From: Lacrimispora sphenoides JCM 1415
GTDB taxonomy: Bacteria > Bacillota > Clostridia > Lachnospirales > Lachnospiraceae
Reading direction: 5' to 3'
Assembly: GCF_900105615.1 (NCBI RefSeq)
Contig: NZ_LT630003.1
Location: forward strand, 2,356,001 to 2,420,000
DNA: 64,000 bases
Part shown: positions 1 through 4,632 of the stretch, one piece after another
Numbering within the stretch: position 1 is the first letter of the stretch
Layout of the letters: every line of letters starts with the position of its first letter
Position numbers and translations under genes: made by a program
The notes under the pieces: model-generated
The model's input: only the letters and a program-made list of their open reading frames with translations
Databases searched by the model: none
Told to the model about the DNA's origin: nothing

Positions 1-994
1 GAACCGCTTTTAATCCCTTTAATTCTTTCTTTACCGCTTCTATCTGGGGAATATAGATTTTTCTCTGTTCTTCTATGTAATGTTCCACTTCAAGCTGCTT
101 GCCGGCAACTCTTCCGATTTCCCTAAGCCAGGTCTCAAATCCGACGATCCCTAAAGGATTGATGGTCCGGATATAGGGAACGCCGTATAGCTCTTCTAAG
201 CCATTGCCCAGATAATTTCCAAGAACTCCGCAGATGCATGTCGTAGCAACGGATTCTGATAAATGTTCCAGTTCTTCCACCGTTGCGTTGGCATATAAAA
301 ATATGGGCTCTAAATCAAAATTCTTAAACATTTCAATGATTTCATTTCTGGCGCTTTCAAAAAAGTTTTTAAAGTTAACGGTGTTTCTTTTCTGCTCTGG
401 CGGCTTTACGATTCCGCTTAACACCGCATGATCGGATATATCAAACCCAGTCGCCCAAATCCGTGATTTAAAGCCCTCGCAGTGAACGGCTATGACAGGC
501 ACCGGAATCTGGTCCTTTATCATCTCCACCACGCTGTCAATATCCTCTCCGATGATCCCCGTGGCACAGGAGCTGCTGACAAAAATTGCCTTTGGCTGGT
601 AACGCCGGTTGACCTCCACAATGATATCTGCCAGCGCTTCTGTGGAACCGAAAATGGTATCATTCTCATTCATATCTGTACCAATATAGACGGATTTGTT
701 TACGACCCCTCTTTTAGCAGCCACCTGATTGGTAATGATGTACTGAGAACTTGCCGTGGCCGAGCACCCGGAAGGGCCGTGGTGGATAACCGCCACATCC
801 CGGATCCCTCCAAGCTGGCCGAGGGCACAGCCGGAAAGGCAGGTACTTGACTGGGAAAAACAGCGTCCGCAGCCCTTTAAGCTGCCGCATTTGCTCTGGC
901 TGGCAAGATCATGCAAGTCTCCGACATATCCGGTTATGGAGCCTAGCCGGGTCTCCCTGGTGGCCAGATTTGAATTTGATAAATTAATTGCCAT
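1..994 (-). CDS. Nitrogenase component 1-like subunit (NifD-like), 3' end off window
   Basis: Read directly from the minus strand: 331 codons from ATG at 994, preceded by GGAGGT; it runs off the left edge. The three P-cluster-type cysteines of the NifD family are present, in LSGCALGQ, HHGPSGC and SSSCATGIIGEDI. An HCEGF motif follows. A further Cys lies 15 residues before YGVP, the position of the NifD cofactor ligand Cys275. The N-terminus has extra cysteines (SKCGSLKGCGRC) not typical of NifD. Such subunits pair with a NifK-like partner, presumably beyond the edge, and take electrons from the NifH-like protein encoded at 2036. It is last in the visible order nifB-nifX-nifH-cysK-nifD. I infer a group IV nitrogenase-like reductase, possibly methylthio-alkane-reductase-like, rather than N2 fixation. 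The His442-equivalent lies outside the window. Confidence 0.85.
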   Translation of the reverse strand, partial: MAINLSNSNLATRETRLGSITGYVGDLHDLASQSKCGSLKGCGRCFSQSSTCLSGCALGQLGGIRDVAVIHHGPSGCSATASSQYIITNQVAAKRGVVNKSVYIGTDMNENDTIFGSTEALADIIVEVNRRYQPKAIFVSSSCATGIIGEDIDSVVEMIKDQIPVPVIAVHCEGFKSRIWATGFDISDHAVLSGIVKPPEQKRNTVNFKNFFESARNEIIEMFKNFDLEPIFLYANATVEELEHLSESVATTCICGVLGNYLGNGLEELYGVPYIRTINPLGIVGFETWLREIGRVAGKQLEVEHYIEEQRKIYIPQIEAVKKELKGLKAV

Positions 995-1014
995 ATTTAA
1001 CCTCCAAACTTTGA

Positions 1015-2004
1015 CTATGCTTCTTCAAAAAGCTTCGTGGACAGGTACCTAAGACCGGTATCCGCCAAAATAACTACAAGATTCTTCCCTTTGTTTTCCG
1101 TTCTTTTTGCCACCTGGGTTGCTGCGAAAATGGCGGCCCCGGAGGAGGTTCCCACTAAAATCCCGTCCGTCCTTGCAACTTCCTTTGCAGCTTCATATGC
1201 CTGATAGGTTTCCACCTCATATTTTTCATCGTAAATGCTTAAATCCATAGTATGGGGAATCCGTTCTGCGGGCACTCCTTCAAAGGGATGGACCCCTGTG
1301 ATATCCGGCGGCAGCGGATCCGTCTCATTGGGCAGGGAACCTGGCCCAGGCTGTATGGCGATGATCTTAATATTTTTATTTTTACTTTTTAAGTACCTTC
1401 CTGCTCCCGATATGGTTCCTCCTGTGCCGACACAGGCCACCAGAATATCCACCTTTCCCTCCGTATCCGCCCAGATCTCCGGCCCTGTGGTCGCTTCATG
1501 AACGGAAGGATTTGCCGGATTTTCGATCTGATTGACAAAGAAGTTGGTTTTTTCTTTTGACAGCACTTTCTCCTTTAAGGTTCTGACAGCCGCCACAAAA
1601 TCCCCGCCTGTTTCATCTAACACCGCCTGGACCTCCGGCACCTGGGAGAATCTGATTGCTTCTCCGCCAAAAGCTTTGATGTTTTTAAACCGCTCTTCAC
1701 TGACATTGTCCTGGACATATACCCGGAAGGAATATCCCCTGGCTGCCGCGATTGCCGCCATGCCGATCCCTGTATTTCCGCTGGTGGTCTCCACAATGGT
1801 ATACCCCGGCTTTAAGAGTCCTTTTTTTTCCGCATCGCCGATCATGGCAAGTGCTATCCTGTCTTTTACGCTCTGGTTGGGATTGAAATACTCAAGCTTT
1901 GCTATGATCTTCGCTTCCAGACCGTGTTTTCTTTCATAATTTTCCAGCTCCAAAAGAGGCGTTTTTCCTATGAGTTCCGTGATTGATTTATGAATATTAC
2001 TCAT
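1015..2004 (-). CDS. cysK: Cysteine synthase (O-acetylserine sulfhydrylase)
   Basis: PLP fold-type II enzyme, 329 aa. It makes L-cysteine from O-acetylserine and sulfide. The PLP lysine is in NPNQSVKDR, the substrate loop is TSGNTG near residue 68, and the phosphate-binding loop is GTGGTISG. An upstream in-frame start exists at 2055, but AAGGAGGG sits directly before ATG 2004 (MSNIHKS), which also matches the family N-terminus. It lies between the nifH-like and nifD-like genes with gaps of about 31 and 20 nt, so it is an integral operon member. This placement suggests that the sulfur released by the nitrogenase-like reductase is fixed into cysteine. Confidence 0.95.
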   Translation of the reverse strand: MSNIHKSITELIGKTPLLELENYERKHGLEAKIIAKLEYFNPNQSVKDRIALAMIGDAEKKGLLKPGYTIVETTSGNTGIGMAAIAAARGYSFRVYVQDNVSEERFKNIKAFGGEAIRFSQVPEVQAVLDETGGDFVAAVRTLKEKVLSKEKTNFFVNQIENPANPSVHEATTGPEIWADTEGKVDILVACVGTGGTISGAGRYLKSKNKNIKIIAIQPGPGSLPNETDPLPPDITGVHPFEGVPAERIPHTMDLSIYDEKYEVETYQAYEAAKEVARTDGILVGTSSGAAIFAATQVAKRTENKGKNLVVILADTGLRYLSTKLFEEA

Positions 2005-2035
2005 TGATACCCTCCTTGATCCAGCATCTTCGTGC

Positions 2036-2884
2036 TTAGATCTTATAATCGTCATTGATGTTCATGAGTCCGAATTCAAAAAGAATCTCTTCCAGCCGTT
2101 CCTGGTCCATGGGAGTGGGAATGGTGAAATCCTGATTGTCGATGATTGCCTGGGCAAGATTCCGGTATTCATCTGCCTGGCTGGAATCGGGTTTGTATTC
2201 AATGACTGTTTTGCGGTTGATCTCCGCATGCTGCACAATGTTATCCCTTGGAACAAAGTAGAGAAGCTTAGTTCCAAGCTCTTTTGAAAAGGCGCGGAGT
2301 AAATCCAGTTCCCGGTCTACGTTCCGGCTGTTGCAGATGATTCCTCCAAGCCTCACCCCTCCTGTCTTTGCATACCTCTTGACGCCCTTTGCAATGTTAT
2401 TTGCCGCGTATAGGGCCATCATCTCCCCGCTTGCCACAATGTAGATTTCTTTGGCCTTTCCTTCCCGGATGGGCATGGCAAATCCTCCGCAGACCACATC
2501 GCCCAATACGTCGTAAAACACATAATCCAGATCATCGGTATATGCACCCAGGTTTTCAAGAAGTCCTATGGAAGTGATGATGCCTCTTCCCGCACAGCCT
2601 ACCCCTGGCTCCGGGCCACCTGATTCCACACATCTGGTTCCTTTATAGCCTTCCTTCAGGATGCGGTCAAGCTCTACACCATCCCCCTCTTCCCGCAAAG
2701 TATCAAGAACTGTTTTCTGTGCCAGGCCGCCAAGGAGCAGCCTGGTGGAATCTGCCTTTGGATCACACCCAACTACCATAACCTTTTTCCCAAGCTCCAC
2801 TAACCCTGCCGTCAGGTTTTGGGTTGTAGTGGATTTTCCGATCCCTCCCTTCCCATAAATGGCTATCTGTCTGATTTGTCCCAT
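2036..2884 (-). CDS. NifH-like iron protein (dinitrogenase reductase family)
   Basis: 282 aa from ATG 2884 ([14 protein letters not shown]), with a GAGAGG site upstream; the longer frame to 2938 has no better site. The P-loop is GKGGIGKST near residue 11. The two [4Fe-4S] ligands are in VGCAGRG and DVVCGGF, and the docking/ADP-ribosylation arginine is in GCAGRG. Similarity to bona fide NifH/AnfH is high along the whole length ([18 protein letters not shown]). This ATP-driven reductase donates electrons one at a time to a NifD/K-like component. A gene so NifH-like next to cysK and without visible nifE/N is unusual, so calling it a nitrogen-fixation gene would be premature. Confidence 0.92.
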
Positions 2885-2955
2885 TGATAAAATCCTCTCT
2901 TTCTGATTCGCATAATTAATTGTCGTATAAGTCTTCAATCAAAGTCAGGCTTTCT

Positions 2956-4210: not shown

Positions 4211-4235
4211 TTTAATCTCTCTTTCTCATCTTTCT

Positions 4236-4392
4236 TCAATCGGATATTCGCAATCCGCTTTGCTGCTTGCTCATAACCTAATAGCTGCTATTGCAGTTTG
4301 TCAGAAGGGTCTTGCACCCCTTCTGACACAAGTAAGTCCCCGCCCTCCACTTATGCCTTTCCGGCATTGAAGTGGGGGACTTACCTGATGAG
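4236..4392 (-). mobile_element. Candidate non-autonomous IS200/IS605-type element
   Basis: About 157 bp with no ORF, between yezD and nifB. It abuts TTTAAC, the kind of target used by IS605. It contains a nested hairpin (arms 4332-4352 and 4370-4384, inner ATGCC/GGCAT), a perfect 10-bp stem (4300-4309 with 4318-4327) and a CGGAT/ATCCG hairpin at its other end. Both ends recur, in the same order and orientation, at 57014-57053, where the middle is missing. No transposase is seen. An RNA or regulatory role is possible. Confidence 0.4.
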
Positions 4393-4403
4393 GTTAAATC
4401 AGG

Positions 4404-4465
4404 ATACAAAAAAGGACAACCTTCTCCTGATACGCATTCCTGCTTATCAGAACCTCCGGTTGTCC
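4404..4465 (-). terminator. Terminator after the yezD-like gene
   Basis: On the minus strand GGACAACC (4458-4465) pairs with GGTTGTCC (4414-4421), with an inner CTGATA/TATCAG stem, followed by CCTTTTTTG. It could be partial, leaving read-through into nifB, because no clear promoter was found between it and nifB. Confidence 0.6.
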
Positions 4466-4467
4466 AG

Positions 4468-4632
4468 TCAGTCCTTTATTCTTATTTTTTCTATTTTTTC
4501 GATCTGTACGATCTTTCCATCCTGAATGGTGATGGTGATGGAACCATACTTTACATGGCTGGCCATTTCATGGATCAGCCTGATGTATTCTTTTTCTTGA
4601 TCAGAAGCATTTGAATAGGATATCGGAATCAC
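4468..4632 (-). CDS. YezD-family small protein (DUF2292)
   Basis: A 54-residue ORF, GTG start at 4632 just after an in-frame TGA; AGGGAAG lies immediately upstream. The second half, HVKYGSITITIQDGKIVQIE, matches the YezD/DUF2292 signature (YGSVxIxVHDGKIxQIE). The N-terminus is variable. The function is unknown, but family members often lie in sulfur-assimilation operons. Here the gene is first after a cysteine-codon leader and upstream of nifB-nifX-nifH-cysK-nifD, which supports a sulfur role. The short spacing between ribosome site and GTG makes the exact start less certain than the frame. Confidence 0.75.
   Translation of the reverse strand: MIPISYSNASDQEKEYIRLIHEMASHVKYGSITITIQDGKIVQIEKIEKIRIKD

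Follow-up and report, generated by a model that had tools for sequence, protein, structure and literature searches.

What does a nitrogenase-like operon do when a cysteine synthase gene lies among its structural genes and a run of cysteine codons ahead of them? The question is raised by a 64,000-nucleotide stretch of Lacrimispora sphenoides JCM 1415 (bases 2356001-2420000 of a genome of one 5.3 Mb contig, 99.93% complete), hereafter the window, in which yezD, nifB, nifX, nifH, cysK and a nifD-like gene, D1, lie collinear on the minus strand. The original prediction, made from the window alone, described exactly these genes, with the YezD gene first, as a reductase cluster built around cysteine synthesis. 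This first reading is supported by computed gene content, homology, ligand conservation, a leader with its terminator and a genomic link to sulfur genes. Together they lead us to propose that the operon is probably a cysteine-starvation system for scavenging organic sulfur, in which a reductase with a P-cluster and an [Fe8S9C] cluster would cleave organosulfur C-S bonds for cysteine synthesis.

Relationship of D1 and K1 to methylthio-alkane reductase

The sequence to the left of the window, where a K subunit had been expected, holds K1 and a second D/K pair, D2K2, which falls on the side of methylthio-alkane reductase (Mar; MarBHDK of Rhodospirillum rubrum) and not of NifEN. D1 and K1 are far closer to MarDK than to nitrogenase. 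Against the sequences of the Protein Data Bank (PDB), D1 matched MarD (9fmg, 9d9u) at 305 bits with nitrogenase alpha next at 107, and K1 matched MarK at 383 bits with the next match at 75. The predicted fold of D1 (predicted local distance difference test score 79.7) also matched MarD best (9fmg_A, E 1.1e-34, template-modelling scores 0.83/0.86; best non-Mar match 1.2e-20); the structure models were monomers of middling confidence with low-confidence N-termini and served fold matching only. The part of D1 in the window scored 127.5 bits against a nitrogenase-model cut-off of 486.05, and D1 is not assigned to nitrogenase alpha. Mar, which had been named as the closest precedent, is the closest one with a solved structure.

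In a quick alpha-subunit tree of 71 sequences (support by the Shimodaira-Hasegawa-like approximate likelihood-ratio test, SH-aLRT, of 94-100, with a warning of long branches), 13 Nif/Anf/Vnf/NifE sequences split from a Mar-side group that includes D1 and D2 at 100 SH-aLRT. Such a phylogeny had been named beforehand as a check, and the opposing outcome, NifK and NifE/N beyond the edge with a NifD inside the true nitrogenases, was not seen. D1 lies outside the clade of characterised MarD: apart from one long-branched sequence, L125, its own clade (100) has as sister group Mar together with five Mar-sister loci (94, 98). Sequence identity of D1 is 35% with MarD, 29% with D2 and about 20% with NifD.

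Mar carries a P-cluster and an [Fe8S9C] cluster on Cys270 and His429; its active site comprises these residues and Arg428 of an extended loop, and Trp195, Phe199 and His375 are discussed nearby (PMC12552129, in part). The three P-cluster cysteines and the cofactor cysteine claimed for the NifD-like subunit are C52, C77, C143 and C255 of D1. Throughout the D1-clade alignment (91 sequences, near-copies included), the equivalents of MarD C66, C91, C158, C270, R428, H429, W195, F199 and H375 are kept in 91/91; MarD position 73 is mostly Gly or Ser. The three P-cluster cysteines of K1 are kept in 81/81 sequences (the NifK control at the first cysteine column of this alignment reads Gln in 5/5, an alignment shift). 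The Mar ligands, Cys270, Arg428-His429 of loop I and the P-cluster cysteines, are thus found in every D1-clade sequence aligned, and the P-cluster cysteines in every K1 sequence. The column of NifD His442 holds Phe in all 91 D1-clade sequences, and the nitrogenase histidine is lacking there; the control is imperfect, with His in 3/5 NifD sequences and other residues, presumably misaligned, in the remaining two and in the AnfD and VnfD-like sequences.

The Fe protein has a different affinity. The window NifH scored 464 bits to the NifH structure 1cp2 versus 288 to its counterpart in the Mar complex (9fmg_D), and it is not of the MarH type. In a quick tree that did not include MarH, H proteins from D1 loci grouped with NifH of true nif clusters, and the two other H proteins of the genome stood apart from them. 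The pairing of a Mar-like D1K1 with a NifH-type Fe protein thus makes the operon a mosaic of a Mar-side catalyst and a NifH-side reductase.

Sulfur genes and cysteine leaders at related loci

Relatives were taken from a public-genome scan with a query built from close D1 relatives, and the best 80 of 206 confirmed loci were compared. An open reading frame (ORF) for D1 is present in 78 of them, and in 47, the full loci, the flanks reach 8 kb or more on either side. Neighbours were grouped into families at 38% identity, and each family takes its name from a single representative scanned in NCBIfam; the representatives of NifS and NifU scored over the model cut-offs, and those of the CymR-like, SsuA-like, cystathionine-lyase and CysE families below them. 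The full loci carry core genes for H (47), K1 (46) and NifB (43), and among sulfur genes the CysK family (42), PatB C-S lyase (24), the cystathionine-lyase family (24) and a CymR-like Rrf2 regulator (18). LysR (29), SsuA-like (12), MetY (6) and CysE (6) proteins were also counted. The tie to sulfur is therefore broader than first claimed. In each locus the best-matching CysK ORF shares 40-75% identity with the window CysK (69 loci), and CysK stands between H and D1 in 51/64 loci where H closely precedes D1. YezD was found in 23/80 loci by tblastn; the neighbour count of the full loci covered ORFs of at least 80 residues, hence its 0/47 there. Six of seven transporter proteins scanned in NCBIfam match a cystine-transporter model best, all below its cut-off, which suggests a sulfur amino acid or a thioether as the imported substrate.

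The association of such genes with cysteine synthase is already in print. Dos Santos et al. (2012) noted a sulfhydrylase near the R. rubrum nitrogenase-like genes and described Cys275-bearing nitrogenase-like pairs beside cysteine synthase or O-acetylhomoserine sulfhydrylase in R. rubrum, Clostridium beijerinckii and Geobacter (PMC3464626, in part). These pairs are of the same gene type and sulfur association as ours; the Mar ligands, the leader and the Fe-protein mosaic do not figure in that part of their account. The MarHDK-like genes of type I mlp clusters likewise occur in anaerobes with CysK, PatB and MetC neighbours and a proposed use of methyl-sulfur compounds; those clusters centre on corrinoid methyltransferases (PMC10418091, in part). 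Isethionate reductase IsrBHDK is also nitrogenase-like and frees sulfur from an organic compound. However, IsrD has one of the three P-cluster cysteines and lacks the cofactor cysteine (Cys275), whereas D1 has all four, which places it outside the Isr type (PMC11423573).

The second line of evidence lies ahead of the operon, where a ribosome-site-like AAAGGATG precedes the ORF for a leader peptide, MKNAMVSARVNLLSSFDKMDCCCCKTVCMYMNTAYFCMY. The attenuator that had been claimed on account of its cysteine codons is borne out in its leader and terminator: an ORF with tandem cysteine codons followed by an intrinsic terminator, the arrangement of a ribosome-mediated cysteine attenuator, is found in the window and in loci L018-L021, whose leaders resemble that of the window. 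A scan of the D1 loci gave 18 Cys-codon leaders on the coding strand versus 6 on the other strand. Leaders of the CCC type occupy 11/144 gaps before operon genes versus 4/198 other gaps, and each of the latter four has an ABC-transporter or D2 gene of its own locus no more than about 3 kb away; the majority of D1 loci show no leader of this type. A hairpin with a T run (-14 to -25 kcal/mol) follows within about 65 bases in 14/16 leaders (the window and 15 others), the exceptions being L041, which has none, and L066, where it is weak. Among 14 leaders compared for alternative pairing, it is clear in L089-L091, where it spans 10 bp and was equalled by 0/200 shuffles; the figure for ten others is 21 to 160 of 200, which makes the pairing weak or no better than chance in most of them. 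Four Rfam matches in the leader region all fell below their gathering scores.

The L089-L091 leaders (L089:4978-5124, L090:14009-14140, L091:13958-14095) precede, by about 2.6-2.8 kb, an ABC ATPase in the vicinity of the D1 operon, and their perfect antiterminator falls within conserved leader codons. A further Cys-codon leader in locus L021, MKKVTINSCYKCLCCCNLAVSFGTLL at 16240, differs from the first and precedes an ABC ATPase by about 4 kb.

By description, the leader resembles uORFC-8-2, a cysteine attenuator before cysS that combines tandem cysteine codons in a leader ORF with an intrinsic terminator. That type is reported only before cysS in Rhodobacterales, whereas ours stands before nitrogenase-like operons in other bacteria (PMC8632094, in part). 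In the open PubMed Central (PMC) literature, which excludes subscription papers and bioRxiv preprints outside PMC, we found no report of a Cys-codon leader before nitrogenase-like genes. As far as the PMC literature shows, the new elements here are a D1 clade in which Mar ligands go with an Fe protein of the NifH type, the cysteine leader of that clade and the clade's identity with a nifH marker from the gut.

Alternative readings and the second reductase pair

Several observations weigh against a cysteine-starvation system. The claim that cysK lies within the operon holds in the window, where the gene stands between nifH and D1, and fails as a general rule: CysK is absent from the closest listed relative, Lacrimispora celerecrescens 152B (D1 99% identical), from L019-L021 and from L066. 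Thus cysK is a frequent but dispensable member of the operon; in favor of the system, all five CysK-less full loci (L018-L021, L066) carry a Cys-codon leader. The transporter assignment is weakened by its sub-threshold matches, the second binding protein matches a lysine/arginine model better than any other, and proteins of the SBP1 type occur in only 14/47 full loci. Two genes with sulfite/nitrite-reductase domains indicate that the genome may have other sulfur routes. NifS in 12/47 and NifU in 6/47 full loci would also be compatible with a part in cluster assembly. In the D1 clade the equivalent of MarD H194 is Ile (89) or Val (2) and that of H376 is Tyr (89) or His (2), replacements that mean the substrate may differ from that of Mar. 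By bare consensus counts, promoter- and terminator-like sites are no commoner in the window than in shuffles: four promoter-like sites versus a shuffle mean of 3.5, with the site listed in Table 1 the only perfect match, and one terminator-like site in 1051 bases versus 1.1, so the case for the terminator rests on its position and on the relatives. Finally, the window antiterminator, TACCTG with CAGGTA, is only suggestive, its pairing being equalled by 21/200 shuffles.

The alternative that survives best, although we consider it unlikely, is a plain methylthio-alkane reductase, in which D1K1 would convert methylthio-alkanes (dimethyl sulfide, methylthioethanol) to methanethiol and hydrocarbon and feed methionine or, via CysK-like enzymes, other thiols. 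MarDK is the closest solved relative in sequence and fold, the hallmark Arg-His is retained, NifB-type partners and a sulfur neighbourhood are common to both systems, MetY occurs in 8/78 D1 loci, and a 2023 preprint placed MarHDK-like genes, along with CysK and PatB, in methyl-sulfur pathways (PMC10418091, in part). In contrast, D1 forms a separate clade at 35% identity, when the 11 Mar sequences compared share at least 73% identity with R. rubrum MarD; the Fe protein is unlike MarH, and the second-shell His194 and His376 are substituted. The D1 operon also has cysK instead of MetY, the Cys-codon leader, amino-acid transporters and a second D/K pair. Furthermore, the neighbours favor sulfide and cysteine (CysK, 42/47) over methanethiol and methionine (MetY, 6/47).

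A very improbable alternative would make the operon an unorthodox nitrogenase, of the kind claimed for the group IV enzyme of Endomicrobium proavitum, and D2K2 its NifEN-like scaffold. The Fe protein exceeds the curated nifH cut-off and NifB and NifX are present. N2 fixation with group IV genes alone has been reported for E. proavitum (PMC9147875, PMC4995403 and PMC11257099, each in part), the NifD of that species is said to lack the histidine as well, and 15N2 incorporation and acetylene reduction were reported for human faecal microbiota (PMC4995403, in part). D2, like NifE, has the cysteine but no histidine ligand. Against these points stand the missing His442, the grouping of D1 with Mar, the Cys leader and the surrounding sulfur genes. 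In the genome of L. sphenoides no NifD was matched at E 1e-150, and both nitrogenase alpha (best D2 at 177 and D1 at 155 bits) and the homocitrate synthase NifV (100.6 bits versus 462.9) stay below their cut-offs. Nitrogenase alpha (TIGR01862) exceeds its cut-off elsewhere in 6/11 operon-bearing genomes and is absent at that threshold from 5/11: those of L. sphenoides, L. celerecrescens 152B, Lachnospiraceae 3-1, Butyrivibrio LC3010 and Lachnospiraceae RM5. The operon is thus INDEPENDENCE from N2 fixation, that is, not tied to nitrogenase. ORFs with a PII signature number 0 in the 80 D1 loci and likewise 0 in the 6 true nif loci that served as positive control, and this count therefore carries no weight.

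The second pair is also Mar-like. D2 matched MarD best among PDB sequences (217 bits versus 115 next), as K2 matched MarK (242 versus 80), and D2 forms its own clade (99) on the Mar side of the tree; this comparison, which argues against NifEN, covers D2K2 of the four D/K pairs in the genome. The four cysteines are kept in the 39 D2 sequences and the Arg-His loop is absent; three P-cluster cysteines are present in 21/21 K2-type sequences, including K2 of this genome. The candidate of a fused NifEN, suggested by a 949-residue open frame in the family search, was rejected: D2 and K2 are separate ORFs of 486 and 421 residues with MarD and MarK as best matches. An obligatory scaffold was likewise set aside. 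D2-type matches, judged from bit scores alone in genomes of which several are incomplete, occur in only 11/20 D1 genomes (candidates were incompletely scored in two of the nine without), and G459 and G517 have a D2-type match without D1; the G573 member sits on a long branch. Because D2-type genes and D1 do not always co-occur, such a scaffold is considered unlikely, and D2K2 would more probably be a second reductase than an assembly factor that the system requires.

Least probable of all is that CysK supplies cysteine for building large Fe-S clusters while the reductase acts on a sulfur-free substrate, as NifS and NifU at some full loci would allow, since this leaves the Cys-codon leader and the PatB, cystathionine-lyase, SsuA-like and CymR-like neighbours unexplained.

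Operon layout, proposed mechanism and the gut nifH marker

The features of the window are collected in Table 1. Past the left edge the operon continues on the same strand (locus L009) with K1, a second NifX-domain protein, a family-3 solute-binding protein, two permeases, an ATPase, two more permeases, another ATPase, D2, K2 and a second family-3 binding protein.

Table 1. Features of the D1 operon and its leader region (window coordinates unless noted).
Feature	Coordinates	Strand	Evidence
Sigma-70-type promoter, TTGACA-17-TATAAT	5046..5074	-	12/12 consensus bases
Leader peptide, 39 codons	4870..4989	-	four consecutive Cys codons, six Cys in total
Putative antiterminator strand, TACCTG	4862..4867	-	two bases past leader stop; complementary to terminator 5' arm 4833-4838
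Intrinsic-terminator-like hairpin and T run (attenuator)	4811..4840	-	folded segment -15.4 kcal/mol
YezD/OscA-like DUF2292 small protein	4468..4632	-	PF10055 53.9 bits; OscA model 33.7, below cut-off 85
NifB core (radical SAM), without fused NifX domain	3338..4210	-	TIGR01290 284 bits, residues 9-269; below cut-off 343.65 of the longer model
X1, NifX/NafY-domain cofactor carrier	2956..3315	-	PF02579
NifH-type Fe protein	2036..2884	-	TIGR01287 (nifH) 457.6 bits, cut-off 394.35
CysK, O-acetylserine sulfhydrylase family	~1015..2004	-	cysKM model 327.9 bits, just below cut-off 344.15
D1, MarD-like catalytic subunit, 487 residues in total	1..994, on to genome 2355531 (L009:13531-14994)	-	

A strong inverted repeat lies between yezD and nifB (window 4290-4395); its nine genome matches, itself included, are 82-100% identical and some are partial, the mark of a small dispersed repeat inside the operon. 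Just upstream (window 5193-7611) are a SulP-family anion transporter and a Crp/Fnr-type regulator, kept with the operon in L018 and L019, that are possibly part of the same sulfur regulon. At L019:11464-15648, downstream of D1, K1-X2-SBP1-permease is partly duplicated in tandem. The Treponema loci L074 and L082 also carry, on the opposite (minus) strand and adjoining ABC-transporter genes, another D1-like gene (47% identity).

Eight PF00148 matches in the genome make up four D/K-like pairs. Two belong to further H-D-K sets, at L010:7337-10579 (genome 2914337-2917579) and L011:6620-9796 (genome 113620-116796), whose D proteins share 17% and 15% identity with MarD, respectively. The first set adjoins an ABC transporter with an enterobactin-type binding protein (model match below cut-off); the second follows a carbon monoxide dehydrogenase (over cut-off) and, judged by eye, Crp-family regulator-like and Fec-type transporter-like genes.

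From this gene content we infer how a cysteine-starvation operon would work. An organosulfur compound would enter through the amino-acid (cystine-type) ABC transporter. At the cost of ATP, the NifH-type Fe protein would hand electrons to D1K1, where a P-cluster would relay them to an [Fe8S9C] cluster that is made by NifB and has Cys255 and His412 as its ligands. The C-S bond of the substrate would then be cut reductively, and the freed sulfide (or thiol) would be trapped by cysteine synthase. When charged tRNA-Cys is scarce, a ribosome stalled in the Cys-rich leader would allow read-through of the terminator. A more far-reaching version, to which we give only tentative credence, is that a single NifH and a single NifB serve two Mar-side reductases, D1K1 and D2K2, which would strip imported organosulfur to sulfide for CysK, and that this machine, rather than a nitrogenase, is the clostridial 'cluster III nifH' of human-gut (perhaps rumen) surveys.

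D1 exceeds 800 bits in 20/299 genomes sampled from the family and also occurs in Ruminococcus, Treponema and other loci. In Lachnospiraceae bacterium 3-1 (L032), Butyrivibrio sp. LC3010 and Lachnospiraceae RM5, no nifH other than the operon H reaches E 1e-60. Human-gut OTU-34 (operational taxonomic unit 34) is more than 97% identical to NifH of strain 3-1, cluster III nifH occurred in 10.7-31.7% of individuals across four metagenome cohorts, and the NifD histidine is said to be kept in members other than L. multipara, AE2021 and P. bryantii (PMC4995403, in part). The D1 of strain 3-1 has Phe in that histidine column with the Mar-type Arg-His nearby, and no other alpha subunit was found in its genome. 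Since the operon H scores above the cut-off of the curated nifH model, it is likely to be included when gut diazotrophs are counted by nifH.

Together, our results predict a widespread anaerobic route to cysteine sulfur through nitrogenase-type clusters, and hydrocarbon release in gut and rumen by such reductases is possible. The iron-protein gene of this operon is easily mistaken for a marker of nitrogen fixation. The one nifH found in strain 3-1, the cited kin of the human-gut 'cluster III nifH', belongs to a D1 operon, which makes inferences of N2 fixation in the gut testable.

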